The notes beneath the pieces were generated by a model. That model did no database searches. It was not told the origin of the DNA and saw nothing but the letters and a program-made list of their open reading frames with translations. This document shows, in pieces, positions 45,786 through 55,727 of a stretch of DNA of 64,000 nucleotides. The stretch comes from Gammaproteobacteria bacterium (lineage in GTDB: Bacteria; Pseudomonadota; Gammaproteobacteria; Pseudomonadales; Azotimanducaceae): NCBI GenBank assembly GCA_030425195.1, contig JAUIAV010000020.1, positions 1 through 64,000 on the forward strand. The letters run 5' to 3'. The position numbers were made by a program, and so were the translations under genes. Numbering within the stretch: the first letter of the stretch is position 1; each line of letters begins with the position of its first letter.

Positions 45786-45809
45786 CAATATCAATATTTT
45801 TTGATATTG
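45786..45809. promoter_or_regulatory. Perfect 9-bp inverted repeat CAATATCAA-tatttt-TTGATATTG, candidate SahR operator
   Basis: Between the divergent aminotransferase (start 45750) and the sahR-like gene (start 45840). Confidence 0.8.
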
Positions 45810-45839
45810 ACTCCGGCCATTGCTAGAGTGCGCCTCCTG

Positions 45840-46853
45840 ATGAGCAGCACCGCAAGCAGACTGAAACCGCGCCAGGTCGGCAAGGGTCCGGATGATTCCG
45901 TGGATACCCTGGTGGGCCTGGCCAAGGCTGTGGGAGACCGTCTCCGCGCCGACATCCTGCGCGTGCTGTACCAGGACTCCTATGCCGTGGGCGAGCTCTG
46001 CGAGCTGTTCGACGTCCCCCAGCCCGCGCTCAGTCATCATCTGAAAATCCTCCATCATGCCGGCCTCGTCGCCCGACGCCGGGAAGGCAACAGCATTTTC
46101 TACCGGCGCTCCACGCCCGGGCCGGCTGCTGCCGCTCTCTTTCTGGAGCTGGATGCACAACCCCTCTCCGGCGACCTGGCCGGGACCATCTCCCGCATCC
46201 ACGAGCAGCGGACTCAGCGGTCGGCGCGTTTCTTCGAGGAGAAGGCCGACGCGATCCGGGCCCACCAGGCCGAGATCTGCGAATCGGCCACCTACCAGGA
46301 AGTCGTCCTGGAGATGGTCGACGGCGCGATCGCCGCGGGTGCGGACACTGCCGATGTGCTCGAAGTGGGACCCGGCTCGGGTACCCTGCTGGCCGAGCTT
46401 GCCGGTCGGTACACGAATGCATGGGGCGTCGACAGCTCACGCACCATGCTGGACGCGGCCAGAGGGGCCATTCCCGCTGACCGCCAGGTCCACTTCTCTC
46501 ATCAGGATTTCATGACCCTGCCATCGCAGCGCCGCTACGATGCGCTGGTTGCGGCCATGGTGATTCACCACCAGGCATCTCCCGCGGCGTTTTTCGCCAA
46601 GGCGGCGGACGTACTCCGGGCTGGCGGTCACCTGCTGGTCGCCGAGCTGTGCCGGCACGATCAGGAATGGGCACGGTCTGCCTGCGGAGATACCTGGCTC
46701 GGCTTCGACCCGGATGAACTCCAGGCCTGGGCCGAACGTGCCGGCTTCGTGACCGTGAACGCCCAGTTTCTGGCGCAGAAGAACGGATTCCAGGTGCAGG
46801 TGCACGGACTTCGGATACCCCCCACTGAATTCAATGACAGGACGACGACATGA
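45840..46853 (+). CDS. sahR: ArsR-family regulator fused to a SAM-dependent methyltransferase domain (SahR-like)
   Basis: Ars[68 protein letters not shown]; MTase motif [28 protein letters not shown]; stop overlaps the ahcY start. Confidence 0.87.
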
Positions 46854-48211
46854 CCGACTACAAGGTAGCTGACATCAATCTGGCGGACTTCGGCCGCAGA
46901 GAGATCACCCTGGCGGAAGCGGAGATGCCCGCCCTCATGGCCCTCCGGAAAAAGTACGCCGACACGCAGCCGCTGGCCGGCGCGAAGATCATCGGCTGCA
47001 TCCACATGACCATTCAGACCGCCGTGCTGATGGAAACCCTGATGGCACTGGGGGCGGAGGTGCGCTGGTCGTCCTGCAACATCTTCTCCACCCAGGATCA
47101 CGCGGCCGCCGCCATGGCCGCTGCCGGAGTGCCGGTTTTCGCATGGAAAGGCGAGACCGAAGAGGAATACGAATGGTGCATCGAGCAGACGATTCTTTCG
47201 GACGGCAAGCCCTGGGATGCCAATCTGCTGCTGGACGACGGCGGTGACCTCACCCTCATGATTCACGAGAAGTATCCGGAGATGCTGGAGACCATTCACG
47301 GCATCTCGGAGGAAACCACCACGGGCGTGCACCGGCTCTACGAGATGATGAAGAAAGGCGAGCTCAAGGTGCCGGCCATCAACGTGAACGACTCGGTCAC
47401 CAAATCCAAGAACGACAACAAGTACGGCTGCCGCCACAGCCTCAACGACGCGATCAAGCGCGGTACGGACATGCTGCTCTCGGGCAAGCGCGCCCTGGTG
47501 GTCGGCTATGGCGACGTCGGCAAGGGATCTGCTCAGAGTCTCCGTCAGGAAGGCATGATCGTCCGCGTGGTGGAAGTGGATCCCATCTGCGCGATGCAGG
47601 CCTGCATGGACGGCTTCGAAGTGGTCTCCGCCTACAACAATGGCGTGAACACCGGCAAGCTCGAGGACGTGAACAAGGTGCTCATGGCCGACACGGACCT
47701 GATCGTCACCTGCACGGGTAACGCGGACGTCTGCGACCGGAACATGCTGCAGACCATCAAGCGCGGCGCCGTGGTCTGCAACATCGGCCATTTCGACAAT
47801 GAGATCGATACCGCCTACATGCGCGAGCACTGGCGCTGGGAAACCGTGAAGGATCAGGTGCATCAGATCTTCCGCAGCGACGACCCCTCCGACTATTTGA
47901 TCCTGCTTTCAGAGGGCCGGCTGGTGAATCTCGGGAACGCCATGGGCCACCCTTCCCGGATCATGGACGGTTCCTTTGCGAACCAGGTGCTGGCTCAGAT
48001 GCACCTGTTCGAGCAGCGCTGGGCGGATCAGCCCGACAATCAGCGCGCGCCTATCACCGTGGAAGTGCTGCCGAAGAAGCTCGACGAGGAAGTGGCCGAG
48101 CTCATGGTGCAGGGCTTCGGCGGGGTGCTGACCCGGCTGACCCAGACCCAGGCCGACTACATCGGAGTGGAACCTGAAGGTCCCTTTAAGCCAGAATCCT
48201 ACAAATACTGA
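46850..48211 (+). CDS. ahcY: Adenosylhomocysteinase (SAH hydrolase)
   Basis: [65 protein letters not shown]-binding [17 protein letters not shown]-terminal KPESYKY. Confidence 0.98.
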
Positions 48212-48241
48212 GAGGGACGCCCCTCTCGTCGAGGAGAGGGA

Positions 48242-49561
48242 ATGTCACCAGACGCTGAACGTGCCGCGGCGCTCGCCGCGGCTTTTTTCATCTGTGTCTT
48301 CGCCGGTACACCGGCCGCAGCCGCCGTGCACGTCTTCCGCCATGCGGAAATTCACCCGGTCGCCAGCGCGCCGGTTGCAGACGGCGTGCTGCTCATCGAG
48401 GACGGCGTCATCCTGGCGGTGGGCGCATCCGCCGACATCGAAACCCCTTCGGGTGCCGTAGAGCACGACCTGACCGGCCGCGTGCTGATCCCCGGCATGG
48501 TGGACACCCACTCGCACATCGGCGGTCCTGCCGGCGGTGATGCAAGCGCACCGCTGAATCCGGAAGTGCGCTCGCTGGATTCCATCGACGTGCTGAGTCC
48601 GGACTTCTGGCGGGCCCGGGCAGGCGGTATCACGACCCTGAATGTGATGCCCGGTTCCGGTCACCTGATGAGCGGCCAGACCACTTACCTGAAAATCCGA
48701 AGGGATCCGGCCAGGATCGAAGACTGGCTGTTCTGCGACGACCCTAACCGCGATATCTGCGGCAGCATGAAAATGGCCAACGGCACCAACTCCATCAAGG
48801 AGAAGCCGTTTCCCGGCACCCGGTCCAGATCCGCCGCGCTGCAGCGCAGTCTGTTCGTGGAAGCCGAGAATTACCGGGAGAAGATCCGCCGGGCCGAGGC
48901 GGAAGACAGGGACCCGCCGGACCGGGATCTGCGCATGGAAGCCATGCTGCAGATCCTGGACGGGTCACGGCGGGTGCAGTTTCACACGCACCGGCACAAC
49001 GACATTCTCACCGTCATCCGCCTGGCCGGGGAATTCGGCTTCACGCCCGTCATCCAGCATGGCTCGGACTCCTGGAAAGTCGCAGCAGAGATCGCTGCGG
49101 CGGGACTACCCGTATCCGTCACCTACGTGGAGGCACCCGGCGGCAAGGAGGAAGTGCTCGGCGTGAGCATGCAGGTGGGAGCAATCCTCGAGGAGGCAGG
49201 CGTGGACGTCAGCTTCAATACCGACGACTACGTACTCGACTCCCGGCTCTTCCTGCGCTACGCGGCGCTCAACGTCCGCAACGGCATGTCCGAAACCGGC
49301 GCCCTGGAGGCCCTGACCCTGGCAGGTGCGAGGCATCTGGGCCTGGAGGAACGGGTCGGCTCTCTCGAGCCGGGTAAGGACGCCGACTTCGTCGTGCTTT
49401 CGGGGGACCCTTTCTCCACCTACACCCGGGTACTCGAGACATGGGTGGAGGGCGAACGGATCTTCAACTTCGAAGACCCCGAGCACCGGCGCTTCGCCAC
49501 CGGCGGCGAGAACACCTATCGCAGCAGCGCGGCTCACCACGCGCTGGGAGGCGGATCGTGA
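48242..49561 (+). CDS. Exported amidohydrolase, metal ligands intact
   Basis: Signal peptide; PGMVDTHSHIGG (HxH), QFHTHRHNDI, VIQHGSD, SFNTDDYV. Confidence 0.88.
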   Translation: MSPDAERAAALAAAFFICVFAGTPAAAAVHVFRHAEIHPVASAPVADGVLLIEDGVILAVGASADIETPSGAVEHDLTGRVLIPGMVDTHSHIGGPAGGDASAPLNPEVRSLDSIDVLSPDFWRARAGGITTLNVMPGSGHLMSGQTTYLKIRRDPARIEDWLFCDDPNRDICGSMKMANGTNSIKEKPFPGTRSRSAALQRSLFVEAENYREKIRRAEAEDRDPPDRDLRMEAMLQILDGSRRVQFHTHRHNDILTVIRLAGEFGFTPVIQHGSDSWKVAAEIAAAGLPVSVTYVEAPGGKEEVLGVSMQVGAILEEAGVDVSFNTDDYVLDSRLFLRYAALNVRNGMSETGALEALTLAGARHLGLEERVGSLEPGKDADFVVLSGDPFSTYTRVLETWVEGERIFNFEDPEHRRFATGGENTYRSSAAHHALGGGS

Positions 49562-50775
49562 TCGCCCGACGCCTGCTCGGTCTCCTGCTGCTCGGTACCG
49601 GTCTGCTCGGCGGCGGTCCCGCCGGTGCGGAAGACCTCCTCATCCGCGCCGGACTGCTGCACACCGCAGCCGGTGAGCCCATCGAGAACGGCGTTGTGCT
49701 CGTCCGCGACGGCCGGATCGCGAGAGTCGGCCGCCAGGATCGAGTGCGCGTGCCGGAGGGCCTCCCGGTTCTCGAAGCGGCCGTGGTGACCCCGGGATTC
49801 GTGGATGTCCGGACCACGGACGGGATCTCGGGCGCGTTCGGCGGACGCGAGGGCCAGGTGAGAGATCAGGATCAGCTGGAAACCTCTGATCCGGTGCAGC
49901 CCGAGCTTCGGCCCATCGATGCCTACAACGCAGCAGACCCGCTGGTGGCCTGGGTCCGCCAGTTCGGCGTCACCACCATGCACACGGGACACGGCCCCGG
50001 TGCGGTGATCAGCGGCAGCACCATGATCGTGAAGACCGGCGGCACAGCTGCCGTGCTCGACGAGAACACGGCCATCGCCATCACGCTGGGTCCCTCGATC
50101 ACCAACAACTTCGAATCTCCCGGCACCCGCTCGAAGAGCGTCGCCATGTTGCGCACCGCCCTCGTCGAAGCCGGGACCTATGCGGAGAAACGTGCCGGAG
50201 ACGACCCGCCCGGGCGTGATCTCAGGCTCGAGATGCTCGGCAGAGTGCTCGCCGGCGAGACCCGGGCCATGATCCGCGCACACAGCGCCCAGGACATTCA
50301 GACCGCCCTGCGCCTCAGGGACGAGTTCGGCTTCGAGCTCTGGCTCGACGGCGCTGCCGATGCGCACCTGATGACGGAACAGCTGCAGGCCGCCGGTGTG
50401 CCCGTGCTGCTGCATCCCACCATGCTGCGGACGGGGGAAGAGACGAAGAACGCCAGCTTCGCCGCGGCCAGCGTGCTGCAGAACGCCGGCATTCCCTACG
50501 CCATTCAGAGCGGTCACGAAGACTATGTGCCGAAATCCCGCATCCTCCTGTTCGAAGCGGCCATCGCGGTTGCCAACGGTCTCGCTGCCGAGGACGCCAT
50601 AGTGGCCATCACCCGGACACCGGCGGAGCTGCTCGGTATCGCGGACCGGGTAGGCACCATCGAGCAGGGCAAGGATGCGGATCTGGTGCTGTTCAACGGA
50701 GATCCGTTCGAATACCGCACCCGGGTGTGTGGCGTGATCATTGACGGCATGCCCGTTTCAGAGACCTGCTGGTAG
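49558..50775 (+). CDS. Exported amidohydrolase-like protein lacking canonical metal ligands
   Basis: Signal peptide MIARRLLGLLLLGTGLLGGGPAGA; HxH position reads PGFVDVRTTDG; same fold landmarks as the upstream paralogue; GTG start overlapping the upstream TGA. Confidence 0.85.
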   Translation: MIARRLLGLLLLGTGLLGGGPAGAEDLLIRAGLLHTAAGEPIENGVVLVRDGRIARVGRQDRVRVPEGLPVLEAAVVTPGFVDVRTTDGISGAFGGREGQVRDQDQLETSDPVQPELRPIDAYNAADPLVAWVRQFGVTTMHTGHGPGAVISGSTMIVKTGGTAAVLDENTAIAITLGPSITNNFESPGTRSKSVAMLRTALVEAGTYAEKRAGDDPPGRDLRLEMLGRVLAGETRAMIRAHSAQDIQTALRLRDEFGFELWLDGAADAHLMTEQLQAAGVPVLLHPTMLRTGEETKNASFAAASVLQNAGIPYAIQSGHEDYVPKSRILLFEAAIAVANGLAAEDAIVAITRTPAELLGIADRVGTIEQGKDADLVLFNGDPFEYRTRVCGVIIDGMPVSETCW

Positions 50776-50838
50776 CACCGTTCCCTCCTGCCATGCACCT
50801 GACTACAATGGCCGCCCCCTGCAGTACCAGAGCCGGCC

Positions 50839-51708
50839 GTGAACACCGAGACCATCAACGATCTCATTCACATCCTCGACCTCGAGGAGATTGAGAAGAA
50901 TCATTACCGCGCCACCAGCCCGGACGAAGGCTGGCAGCGCGTGTACGGCGGCCAGGTGATCGGTCAGGCCCTGGTGGCCGCGTCCCGCACGGTACCCGAG
51001 GACCGGCACGCCCACTCTCTGCACGGCTATTTTCTGCGCCCCGGCGACACCACCATTCCGATTCTCTACAAGGTGGACCGTATCCGCGATGGCCGGAGCT
51101 TCACCACCCGGCGGGTGGTGGCCGTGCAGCACGGCCGGGCCATCTTCAACATGTCCATCTCCTTCCAGGTGGCGGAGGACGGATTCGATCACCAGATGCC
51201 GCGACCGGAAGCGCCGGGCCCGGAAGATCTGCTCGACGAGCAGGCACTGCGCGCCGCCTGGGTGGACAGGCTGCCGCCGGAATATGCCGATTCCTTCAAC
51301 AGCATCCGGCCCATCGAGGTCCGCCCCATCGATCCGGTGAACATCTTCGAGCCGGAAAAGCGGGCGCCGCATCAGATGTGCTGGATGAAAGCGCGCAACC
51401 CGCTGCCGGACGATCCGCGCCTGCACCAGTGCGTGCTGGCGTACCTGTCGGACTGGTCGCTGCTGGACACCGCCATGCTGCCGCACGCGGTGAGCTTCAC
51501 CCAGAACAACATGCAGGTGGCGAGCCTGGATCACGCCATGTGGTTCCATCGCCCGTTCCGGGCGGACGAATGGCTGCTGTACGTTCAGGACAGCCCCTCG
51601 GCGAGCGGCGCCCGGGGCCTCAACCGGGGTCTGATCTACGACAGACAGGGCGTGCTGGTGGCCTCAGCGGCCCAGGAGGGGCTGATCCGGATTCACGACG
51701 GGGACTGA
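50839..51708 (+). CDS. tesB: Acyl-CoA thioesterase II
   Basis: RVYGGQVIGQALVAASRTVPEDRHAHSLHGYFLRPGDTTIPILYKVDRIRDGRSFTTRRVVAVQHGRAIFNMSISFQ; LDHAMWFHRPFRADEWLLY. Confidence 0.95.
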   Translation: MNTETINDLIHILDLEEIEKNHYRATSPDEGWQRVYGGQVIGQALVAASRTVPEDRHAHSLHGYFLRPGDTTIPILYKVDRIRDGRSFTTRRVVAVQHGRAIFNMSISFQVAEDGFDHQMPRPEAPGPEDLLDEQALRAAWVDRLPPEYADSFNSIRPIEVRPIDPVNIFEPEKRAPHQMCWMKARNPLPDDPRLHQCVLAYLSDWSLLDTAMLPHAVSFTQNNMQVASLDHAMWFHRPFRADEWLLYVQDSPSASGARGLNRGLIYDRQGVLVASAAQEGLIRIHDGD

Positions 51709-51745
51709 CCGCCGGCAGTCCTTCACCGCGGCCGAATGCTGCGGC

Positions 51746-53005
51746 CTACCGGTACCACCGATCCGGATCCGCAGGATCCCGGTAACGATCGAACAGACGC
51801 GTTTGCCGGCTGCTCATGTCCTGCCAGGCGCCGCCGATCATCACCGCTTCCGCCCACTCGGTGATCTCGAGCGGATCGCCGCTCCAGATCACCAGATCCG
51901 CCGGTGCGCCTTCAGCGAGCGTTCCGGTGCCGTCAGGCAGTCCCCAGACGCTGCCCGGCGCACGGGTTATCGCCGCCAGCGCCGCGTCCCAGGGCATGCC
52001 GTGCGCGACCGCATTGCCGGCCATCTGACGGATCTTCCGGACGTTGTTGGCATCGGAGGCTGTAAACGTCACCGTCACCCCGGCTTCGTGCAGCAGGGCC
52101 GCGTTGTCGTGCCGGGCGAGCAGACGGTCATAGGACGACGGCAGATTGGCGAGCACGTTCACCACCACCGGCACCTGCGCCTCCGCCAGCCGATCGGCCA
52201 CCTGCCAGGCTTCCGCACCGCCGATGACGATCAGATCGAGATCGAATTCCGCGGCCAGAGCGAGGGCTTCCAGGATGGCGCCCGCCCGGTCCACGGTCAC
52301 GGCCAGCGGCGCACCCGATCGTCGGAAGCGCTGCAACGCGGCCAGATCCTGATGACTGAAGTCTCCCGGACCCGGGCGGTACCGGTTCTGCCGGTAGGTT
52401 CCCGCCATCTGCAGACCCCGACGCATGCGCTGGATCACGGCGGCCCGGCTGCCGCCGGTGAAGACGGCGCTGCCTGCACCGATCGAGGCAAAGAGGGCAA
52501 CTTCCGGCTCAACCAGCAGCGGGTCCCCACCCAGTCTGACGACGGCGCCCCAGCCGGCAAACGGATCGTTGCCGGGCGTCGGGGCGGTCACCGCAGCGGT
52601 CACACCATCCCGCCGGTTCACGGCCAGCGCCACTGCTGCCGGATTCAGCGCATGACGGACGTCGAATGCGGCACCCGACGGATATTCGGTCACCAGGGAA
52701 TCGACGGTGGTGAGCTCACCGCCGATTTCCACCAGCGCGAGACTGGAATCCGATTCGATGAGTCCAGGCGTGACCACCTTGCCGGCTGCCTCAACGACGG
52801 CATATCCGTCCGGCACCGGCTCACCCGTGAGGACGGATTCGATCCTGCCGTCGCGGACCAGCACCGTCGCATCCTCCAGGGTGCCGGCTGCCGCCAGGGT
52901 GTGCACCCGGGCACCGGTGATGGCGATGCCGGGCTCGCTGCCAACAGCGGATGCCGGGCTCTGCAGAAGCGCGATCAGGAGTATGGCCGAGGCGGCGAGT
53001 TTCAT
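51746..53005 (-). CDS. Exported amidohydrolase-like protein lacking canonical metal ligands
   Basis: Signal peptide; TPGLIESDSSLALVE at the HxH position; VIGGAEAWQVADRLAEAQVPVVVNVLANLPSSYD; ADLVIWSGDPLE C-terminal motif. Confidence 0.85.
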   Translation of the reverse strand: MKLAASAILLIALLQSPASAVGSEPGIAITGARVHTLAAAGTLEDATVLVRDGRIESVLTGEPVPDGYAVVEAAGKVVTPGLIESDSSLALVEIGGELTTVDSLVTEYPSGAAFDVRHALNPAAVALAVNRRDGVTAAVTAPTPGNDPFAGWGAVVRLGGDPLLVEPEVALFASIGAGSAVFTGGSRAAVIQRMRRGLQMAGTYRQNRYRPGPGDFSHQDLAALQRFRRSGAPLAVTVDRAGAILEALALAAEFDLDLIVIGGAEAWQVADRLAEAQVPVVVNVLANLPSSYDRLLARHDNAALLHEAGVTVTFTASDANNVRKIRQMAGNAVAHGMPWDAALAAITRAPGSVWGLPDGTGTLAEGAPADLVIWSGDPLEITEWAEAVMIGGAWQDMSSRQTRLFDRYRDPADPDRWYR

Positions 53006-54390
53006 TCACCACCTCCGTTCACCGTCTGTTCCAGCTCGAAGTCGGTCACCGGACGGACGCCTGCCGGACGGTCGTAGTACGGATGGCCATCGATGAGCAC
53101 CAGATCCGCACGGCTGTAGACGCTGAACGGATTCCCGCTCCAGAGCACCAGGTCGGCCGCCTTGCCCACCTCGATGGATCCGGTTTCCGCATCGATCTCC
53201 AGCGCCCGGGCGGCATTCAGCGTAATCCAGGCGATGGCCCGGGCTTCATCCACCGCCATGCCCTGACGCCTTGCGGCAGCCATGGCTTTCGCCGCCTCCT
53301 GATTCAGATGCTGAATGCCGGTGGCGGAGTCCGAGTGAACGATGGCGCAGGCCCCCGCCTCATCCACCAGGGCCACGTTCTCCGTGATCCCGTCGAAGGC
53401 TTCGAGCTTGAAGCCCCACCAGTCCGCCCACATGGCGGAGCAGATGCCTTCCGCTGCCAGCCGGTCGGCGATCTTGTAGGACTCGACGGCATGGTGGAAC
53501 GCCTTGATCTCATAGCCGAACTCGGACGCCACATCGATCATCCAGGCCATCTCGTCCGCCCGGTAGCAGTGGTTGTGCACGAGGATTTCGCCTTTCAGCA
53601 CGCCGACGAGCGTCTCGACGCCGAGATCCCGCTCTGGCGGCACGTCCGGCGCCTCAGCCGAACCGTCGTCTGTGTCCGCGGACGCGTTTACCGCCCGTGC
53701 CGCCTCCTTCTCGAGAGCATGCTGCGCCTTCGCCCAGGCCGCACGGAATCCGGCGATGTTGCCCATCCGGGTCGCCGGCGGCTGGTTGCGGCTGCCGTAT
53801 GCCCGCTTCGGATTCTCACCGCAGGCCATCTTCAGCGACTGCTTGGCACCCGGGAACTTCATCTCCTGCACCGTCCGGGCGGGAATGTTTTTCAGCGTCA
53901 CGCCCCGGCCGCCGAACAGGTTACCGCTGCCGGGCAGGATCTGGAGCGTGGTCACGCCTCCGGCCAGCGCCAGTGGAAACTGCGGATCCTGAGGCCAGAC
54001 CGAATGCTCTGCCCAGACATGGGCCGCATTCGGGCCCGTCATCTCGTTACCGTCCTGAGTGGAGGCGATGGCGGGCGACGGGTAATTACCGAGATGGGAA
54101 TGGACGTCGATGATGCCCGGCGTCAGCCAGCGACCTTCCCCGTCCACCACCCGCGCCTGTTCCGCCGCCAGGCTCTGTCCGACCGCCGTGATCCGGCCGT
54201 CGGCCAGACGCACGTCCGCGCCATCGAGCCTGGCTCCGGTGCCGGTCAGCACGGTAGCGCCGCGGATCAGCAGCGGTTCCGTGGCGCGAGGCTCGTAGGT
54301 GGACTCGTAGGGCGCCCGGGCATGAAGGGGGCCAGCTGCGGCCAGCAACAGCAGGGCCAGACCGCCGCCGGACAGGGTGCCTGGTCTCAT
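53002..54390 (-). CDS. Exported amidohydrolase, metal ligands intact
   Basis: Signal peptide; [44 protein letters not shown]. Confidence 0.88.
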
Positions 54391-55727
54391 GGACCCTCTC
54401 CCTTGAAGACCCGACCGCCCTTCATGACGAAGTGCACGCGCCCGAACTCGGCCGGGTCCGTCAGGGGGTCACCCGGGACGGCAATGATGTCGGCAAGCTT
54501 GCCGGGGCCGATGCTGCCGAGATCCTCGGTCTGGCCGAGCAGATCCGCCGCACTCACGGTCGCGCTGACGATGGCCTTCATGGGCGGCATCCCCGCCTCG
54601 ATCATGTAACCGAACTCCTTCCAGTTGTCGCCGTGCGGAGAGACGCCGGTGTCGGTGCCGAAGGCGATGGGCACACCCATCTCGTAGGCCCGGGCAAAGG
54701 TATCCTGTATGAGCGGGCCGATGGCGGCCGCCTTTGGTCTGACCAGCTCGGAGAAATAACCGGGGATTTCCGCCTTTCCGGCCACGAACTTACCCGCGAT
54801 GATAGTCGGTACGTAGTAGGTGCCCTGTTTCCGCATGAGCTTCATCACCTCTTCGCTCATGAAGGTACCGTGCTCGATGGAATCCACGCCGCCCAGCACC
54901 GCCCGGCGCATGCCCTCGGTGCCGTGCGCGTGGGCCGCCACCTTGAAGCCGTAATCCCGGGCCGCGGCGACGATGGCGGCCACTTCCTCCACGGTGAATT
55001 GCGGATTCTGCCCGGAGCTCGCCTGACTGAGCACGCCGCCCGTGGCCGTGATCTTGATCAGGTCCGAGCCCTCCTTGTACCGGGTCCGGACCCCTTTGTA
55101 GGCGTCCGCCTCGCCGTTGACCACACCTTCCGCCGGCCCCGGATCCCAGCTGAGCGCCTGATTGCGGCCATTGCTCGGATCACCGTGGCCGCCCGTGCTG
55201 GCGAGGGCCTTGCCGGCCGTGAATATGCGCGGTCCCACCACCCAGCCCTGGGCGATGGCGTCCCGCAGGGACTGTGCAATACCCGCGTTGGTGCCCAGAT
55301 CCCGGACCGTGGTGAACCCGGCCATGAGTGTCCGCTCGGCGTACACGACCGACCGGTACGCGTGATCCACTGGATCTTTCGTGAAGGCTTCCACCTGTCT
55401 GCGCGGGCTCTGCTCACTGGCAATGTGGACGTGCATGTCGAGCCAGCCCGGCATCACGGTGGCACTCGACAGATCGATGATCTCCGCCCCTTCCGGCCGG
55501 AGATACCCGGACTCCACCGACAGGATCCGGTCATCCTCTATGCGGATGGACTGCGCCTTAAGCACGCGCTCGCCTTGTACATCGATCAGGCGTCCGGCAT
55601 GAATGATGGTTTCCGCCGATACGGAGCCGGCGGACAGCATCAGCAGGGCCAGTCCCAGCCGCCGGACCCATGGGGTTATCCTCTGGTTTGAAACCAAATC
55701 TGCATCTCCTCCTGTGGTCCCGGGCAT
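54387..55727 (-). CDS. Exported Xaa-Pro dipeptidase/imidazolonepropionase-like amidohydrolase
   Basis: Signal peptide; [58 protein letters not shown]. Confidence 0.92.

Follow-up and report, generated by a model that had tools for sequence, protein, structure and literature searches.

The window analysed here, a 64,000-nucleotide (nt) stretch of Azotimanducaceae DNA (Gammaproteobacteria bacterium, assembly GCA_030425195.1, contig JAUIAV010000020.1, positions 1 to 64,000 of the forward strand), harbours two pairs of overlapping genes, each encoding an intact amidohydrolase (P0001 and P0003, respectively) followed by a paralogue devoid of the metal site (P0002 and P0004, respectively). Pairing of this kind recurs in at least six bacterial phyla. 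Each pair probably encodes two homologous subunits, one catalytic and one non-catalytic, of an exported heteromer in which the dead subunit takes the place of a second protomer.

Two gene pairs with intact and lost metal sites

The first pair is located on the plus strand and consists of (i) P0001 (type I1, 48242..49561, 439 amino acids (aa)), an intact amidohydrolase predicted to be exported, and (ii) its metal-ligand-less paralogue P0002 (type D1, 49558..50775, 405 aa), which has a GTG start and overlaps the end of P0001 by 4 nt (49558..49561, GTGA). The second pair, on the minus strand, comprises the likewise intact and predicted exported P0003 (type I3, 53002..54390, 462 aa) and the metal-ligand-less P0004 (type D3, 51746..53005, 419 aa), with a corresponding 4-nt overlap (53002..53005, ATGA). 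An earlier note on this DNA, made from its letters, had described both pairs together with a fifth amidohydrolase, P0005 (see below). All five reading frames are indeed uninterrupted, P0001/P0002, P0005/P0003 and P0003/P0004 overlap by 4 nt each, and the motifs quoted for both pairs are present in the sequence. Signal peptides had also been ascribed to all proteins; the N-termini are hydrophobic, and it is from this hydrophobicity by itself that signal peptides are predicted.

Catalytically competent amidohydrolases carry an HxH motif, a Lys (or Glu), two His and an Asp at the ends of strands 1, 4, 5, 6 and 8, respectively. All six ligands, i.e., both HxH His, β4-Lys, β5-His, β6-His and β8-Asp, are retained in P0001 (H90, H92, K177, H248, H273 and D328) and in P0003 (H97, H99, K187, H274, H300 and D354), including the β4-Lys, which the earlier note does not list for these proteins. 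In P0002 the six places are occupied by Arg, Thr, Ala, Arg, Gly and Glu (R85, T87, A174, R240, G265 and E321), and in P0004 by Asp and Ser (HxH), Phe (Lys), Thr (β5-His), Gly (β6-His) and Ser (β8-Asp), such that 0/6 ligands are kept in either protein. The proposed combination of an intact and a metal-ligand-deficient paralogue thus holds for both pairs, with six of six ligands versus none in the alignment columns.

In an alignment of Pseudomonadota proteins (49 intact, 46 degenerate), HxH, Lys, His, His and Asp are kept by all intact members with sequence at the site, and the site is lost in all 46 degenerate proteins. The ligands of the P0001/P0002 type were compared among 82 intact and 77 degenerate proteins from many phyla. 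Both HxH His, Lys, β5-His and Asp are conserved in 82/82 intact proteins and β6-His in 81/82 (Gln in the exception), whereas the degenerate proteins have kept the second HxH His, Lys and β6-His in 0/77 and β5-His in 1/77 cases, the first HxH His still being present in 47/77. Since the site is lost in 46 and 77 degenerate sequences of the two alignments, degeneracy is no chance feature of one genome.

Subfamily and fold

The best solved relative of all four pair proteins is an amidohydrolase of Thermotoga maritima (PDB 3ooq), matched with E-values of 6e-60 (P0001), 2.8e-39 (P0002), 8.6e-57 (P0003) and 1.5e-22 (P0004). Judged by sequence, the four proteins belong to one subfamily, of which 3ooq is the only solved structure. 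Pairwise identities amount to 34 % (P0001–P0002), 32 % (P0001–P0003) and 31 % (P0002–P0004). An AlphaFold2 model of P0002, calculated with 61 aligned relatives, reached a mean predicted local distance difference test score (pLDDT) of 90.5 and a predicted template modelling score (pTM) of 0.88, and a fold search with this model returned 3ooq as nearest structure (template modelling (TM) score 0.85/0.90; remaining amidohydrolases about 0.55). Thus, the degenerate protein retains the entire fold of one branch of the superfamily. None of the five window proteins, including P0005, scored above the cut-off of any NCBIfam model, and Pfam assigned each of them to the general families Amidohydro_1/Amidohydro_3 only.

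Pairing across genomes

Related loci were obtained from Pseudomonadota, from 80 named genomes of Acidobacteriota, Bacteroidota, Ignavibacteria, Calditrichota, Planctomycetota, Gemmatimonadota and Pseudomonadota, and furthermore from 8 whole named genomes and samples of Acidobacteriota, Bacteroidota and Planctomycetota. The queries were partly intact and partly degenerate members, and each search contributed its best matches only, so that the pairing counts describe these clades and not all amidohydrolases. Genes with enough flanking sequence (downstream for intact, upstream for degenerate ones) were regarded as evaluable.

A degenerate partner is present for 232 of the 233 evaluable intact genes, either directly downstream (205) or fused (27). 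Conversely, an intact gene is located upstream of 233/233 evaluable degenerate genes; none (0/233) stands without its intact partner. The order is fixed: in all lineages examined the intact gene comes first and the degenerate one second, both on the same strand. The nearest degenerate start overlaps the intact stop by 4 nt in 35/50 pairs of the P0003/P0004 type and 27/74 of the P0001/P0002 type. Other conserved neighbours of the P0001/P0002-type pair were not found across phyla. With respect to abundance, matches to P0002 at E 1e-15 occur in 35 of 299 sampled Pseudomonadota genomes, matches to the degenerate profile in 116/198 Bacteroidota genomes (at least two each), and matches to the fused form at E 1e-60 in 93/199 Acidobacteriota genomes. 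The earlier note had suggested the degenerate members to be obligate pseudoenzyme partners or substrate-binding subunits of periplasmic heteromers; these counts support an obligate partnership at the level of genomic linkage, and a substrate-binding role would be a putative one.

Fused forms, three-domain units and arrays

Fusion of an intact to a degenerate member of the P0001/P0002 type was observed in two Planctomycetota genomes (loci L323 and L324). A third type of unit is composed of an N-terminal degenerate (FN), an intact (FI) and a second degenerate domain (FD), which are distributed differently over genes: (i) a degenerate–intact fusion FN–FI with separate FD (e.g., L116, 1034 aa + 432 aa), (ii) FN followed by FI–FD, as in genome G749 and in Acidobacteria bacterium Mor1 (L258, 906 aa), (iii) FI–FD followed by FN, i.e., in permuted order (L271, L273, L274), (iv) three separate genes (L281, L282), and (v) a single chain of about 1340–1400 aa (L270, L346). 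Intact–degenerate fusions of this third type are present in G749 and about 17 Acidobacteriota. In Planctomycetota, arrays were found that contain at least one intact gene among several degenerate ones (L347 in G1171, L348 in G1209 and L353 in G1158); one 401-aa domain of L347 has kept all ligands except β5-His.

Proteins that are repeatedly fused into one chain usually cooperate physically, as a general rule and not as proof. For structure prediction with AlphaFold2, the 883-aa intact–degenerate fusion of Mor1 was used with an alignment of 18 natural fusions; the alignment was confined to natural fusions because MAFFT placed degenerate single proteins on the intact half. The model has a mean pLDDT of 79.3 and a pTM of 0.82, and 3ooq, matching one domain, is the first hit in the fold search. 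Since two equal domains with an unstructured linker and undefined relative position should by our own estimate yield a pTM of at most roughly 0.5, a defined packing of both domains is predicted. The earlier note had regarded a lack of predicted heterodimer interfaces as a possible objection; the packing predicted here is that of a natural fusion of a related type from Acidobacteriota.

Evolution and selection

In a careful tree with outgroup, clades with good support were recovered for the intact and, separately, for the degenerate proteins of each type, while the backbone is weak; branches of the P0004 type are longer than those of their partners, indicating faster evolution. In a tree computed without the distant outgroup, the 42 degenerate rows together make up one clade (97 in the Shimodaira–Hasegawa-like approximate likelihood ratio test, SH-aLRT). 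A quick tree places the paired intact types in one clade (95), with 3ooq and two intact proteins lacking a degenerate neighbour (L351, L352) outside. Provisionally, these trees may be explained by one ancient loss of the metal site, after which both genes of the pair were passed on and duplicated together. The median ratios of non-synonymous to synonymous substitution rates (dN/dS) are 0.054 for the P0001, 0.080 for the P0002, 0.101 for the P0003 and 0.116 for the P0004 type, and such low values mean strong purifying selection on the degenerate genes.

Proposed function and alternative explanations

In the proposed heteromer, the first subunit, with its invariant ligands, carries the metal-dependent hydrolase site, and the second is a pseudoenzyme which has kept the whole amidohydrolase fold and lost the metal site. 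Both are translated from overlapping or adjacent genes in fixed order, and they would be exported and assembled as one unit, as suggested by the near-universal pairing, the fusions and the predicted packing of the fused form. The dead subunit would most likely stabilise or complete the catalytic subunit and shape substrate access, comparable to the inactive α-subunit of mitochondrial processing peptidase, and activity would depend on it. The substrate is probably a small periplasmic amide or peptide, a guess based on superfamily membership and on the dipeptidase-like gene nearby. A lipobox is found in 35/53 intact proteins of the P0003 type versus 4/52 of their degenerate partners, which may indicate that complexes of this type are membrane-anchored through the catalytic subunit; P0003 itself has no lipobox.

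Several points weigh against this explanation. Proteins that only share a pathway can likewise show fusion and a conserved gene order. Moreover, pTM is an indirect measure, and the modelled fusion from Acidobacteriota is of a related type and not P0001/P0002. Within the paired clade, one intact gene of a Planctomycetota metagenome assembly (L182) has no partner within 2.8 kb downstream. Outside the paired clades, solo intact relatives without degenerate neighbour exist in Planctomycetota (L350, L352, and L351 on a short contig), hence the fold as such needs no dead partner; together with the larger Planctomycetota arrays, they mark the limits of the pairing rule. Finally, the signal for a single origin of the degenerate members could reflect long-branch attraction, considering the weak backbone of the tree with outgroup.

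Among the alternatives, the one surviving best, and still rather unlikely, is that both proteins act in the same pathway without forming a complex, the degenerate one being an exported binding protein that remains free, with a solute-binding or sensor function in a triosephosphate isomerase (TIM)-barrel fold, and that delivers or detects the hydrolase substrate. The pocket of the P0002 type would be in accord with this role, since it is conserved despite the loss of ligands: 30 columns are invariant among 61 sequences, including E321, Y323, V324 and P325, and H142 and H145 are nearly so. The uneven distribution of the lipobox likewise suggests that anchoring of the two proteins may differ. However, the two have repeatedly become joined in a single chain, with varying domain order, which together with the predicted packing favours contact, and the unconserved pockets of the P0004 type do not fit a common binding role.

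It appears improbable that the degenerate paralogue is still an enzyme, operating with other ligands or by a metal-free mechanism. As in a functional site, the former ligand places of the P0002 type are fixed, with Asp replaced by Glu in 76/76 proteins having a residue at that place, β5-His by Thr in 69/77 and Lys by Ala in 63/77. Yet no aligned set of ligands is left, Lys never being kept and β6-His being replaced by Gly in 65/77 and by Gly or Ser in 77/77, and the sites of the P0004 type are wholly unconserved. Alternative metal ligands, which the earlier note had regarded as a possible objection, did not emerge as a conserved replacement set either: the former ligand places of the P0004 type are variable and have drifted to many residues, and those of the P0002 type hold mostly non-ligand residues (Ala, Thr, Gly, and Glu for Asp).

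Slightly more improbable still is a regulator or inhibitor that holds the hydrolase inactive until a ligand arrives; the fixed downstream position and the conserved P0002-type pocket could be read in this way, but an inhibitor that has to be removable is less plausible given that the proteins are covalently fused in many lineages. Decaying duplicates retained by chance, for which the absence of catalytic ligands and the faster evolution of the P0004 type might be cited, can practically be dismissed in view of full-length frames, low dN/dS, the pLDDT of P0002 and conservation across phyla.

Returning to the exported heteromer, the pocket of the P0002 type may have been retained and repurposed and that of the P0004 type may have drifted, as judged from the residue patterns. 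One may tentatively speculate that the old active site of the pseudoenzyme serves as a conserved second site for a ligand or for the substrate of the partner, through which the catalytic subunit is controlled, within widespread and ancient exported heteromers that have grown to three domains or, in Planctomycetota, to arrays in some lineages. Candidate elements of such a site in the P0002 type are an invariant E-x-Y-V-P motif, followed by a nearly invariant Lys, and an H-T-G-H motif.

Metal-dependent amidohydrolases constitute a large and much-studied superfamily, usually regarded as self-sufficient homo-oligomers. The recurrent pairing of live and dead members suggests a type of enzyme complex, so far undescribed, for which a dead partner is required. 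If exported members in common Bacteroidota, Acidobacteriota, Planctomycetota and Pseudomonadota indeed require a homologous dead subunit, their activity would be missed in screens that use only the catalytic gene, which could help to explain why the group lacks an assigned function. The group would furthermore be a rare case for tracing the birth of an enzyme–pseudoenzyme complex, from solo relatives via pairs to fused forms and units of three parts. Natural single-chain versions are available for structural work.

Neighbouring genes

The first gene of the minus-strand operon encodes P0005 (54387..55727), which overlaps P0003 by 4 nt. As had been noted, P0005 is intact and located in this operon; its likeness to Xaa-Pro dipeptidases is reflected in a full-length match to NCBIfam NF051886, scoring 399.9 bits and thus below the cut-off of 500. 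P0005 as part of a conserved unit was rejected, since it adjoins a pair in one other genome only. In this genome (L110, same family), a P0005-like gene (61 % identical) also precedes a pair of the P0003/P0004 type; none was seen beside a pair elsewhere.

Upstream of the plus-strand pair, ahcY (region 46850–48241, adenosylhomocysteinase, 527.8 bits to TIGR00936) ends 30 nt before P0001, and in the gap a GC-rich inverted repeat (CCCCTCTCGTCGAGGAGAGGG) adjoins the likely ribosome-binding site. The preceding gene (45801–46853) overlaps ahcY by 4 nt; its product apparently combines an ArsR-like N-terminal with a methyltransferase C-terminal part and had no match in an NCBIfam search at 1e-20.

Comparison with known systems

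The solved relative 3ooq, an entry of the structural-genomics type, shares the metal ligands of the intact members and differs in its position outside the paired clades, where it groups with intact proteins that occur solo; no mention of it was found in open-access papers. Proteins of the CRMP/DPYSL group (dihydropyrimidinase-related proteins) have kept the amidohydrolase fold without metal site for other functions. They differ from the pairs in being eukaryotic and cytoplasmic and in having no gene pairing with an intact partner, and they gave weak matches only in the sequence search versus solved structures. P0005 resembles the group of Xaa-Pro dipeptidase and L-Lys, L-Arg carboxypeptidase Cc2672 as a superfamily member with hydrophobic N-terminus; it is intact and no conserved neighbour of the pair. 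A prior description of paired or inactive amidohydrolases was not found in open papers, most subscription journals lying outside this scope, and a review on pseudopeptidases mentions neither amidohydrolases nor family M38 (PMC11266112).

The aspartate transcarbamoylase of Pseudomonas aeruginosa contains an inactive dihydroorotase homologue (pDHO) that is necessary for activity of the complex (PMC7053772). This system places an inactive member of the amidohydrolase superfamily in a complex, as is proposed for the pairs; in contrast to the latter, the partner of pDHO is a transcarbamoylase and not an intact homologue, and pDHO is cytoplasmic and outside the 3ooq subfamily.

The M16B heterodimers, i.e., mitochondrial processing peptidase, SPH2681/SPH2682, TTHA1264/TTHA1265 and AlbF/AlbE, combine a catalytic with a homologous subunit lacking the metal motif, the bacterial ones being encoded as gene pairs, and TTHA1264 by itself is monomeric and inactive (PMC12731061, PMC11266112). 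They resemble the amidohydrolase pairs in that homologous catalytic and metal-site-less subunits are encoded together, and in that single-chain forms occur in the M16 family as do fused counterparts among the paired amidohydrolases. The window proteins themselves are not M16B members, which would have the M16 fold and HXXEH; they belong to Amidohydro_1/Amidohydro_3, with amidohydrolases as best structures. Fold and chemistry are unrelated, and for M16B there is proof of complex formation and of what the inactive subunit does, whereas a complex of the amidohydrolases is inferred. The M16B heterodimers and the P. aeruginosa transcarbamoylase with pDHO are the best parallels for the amidohydrolase pairs.

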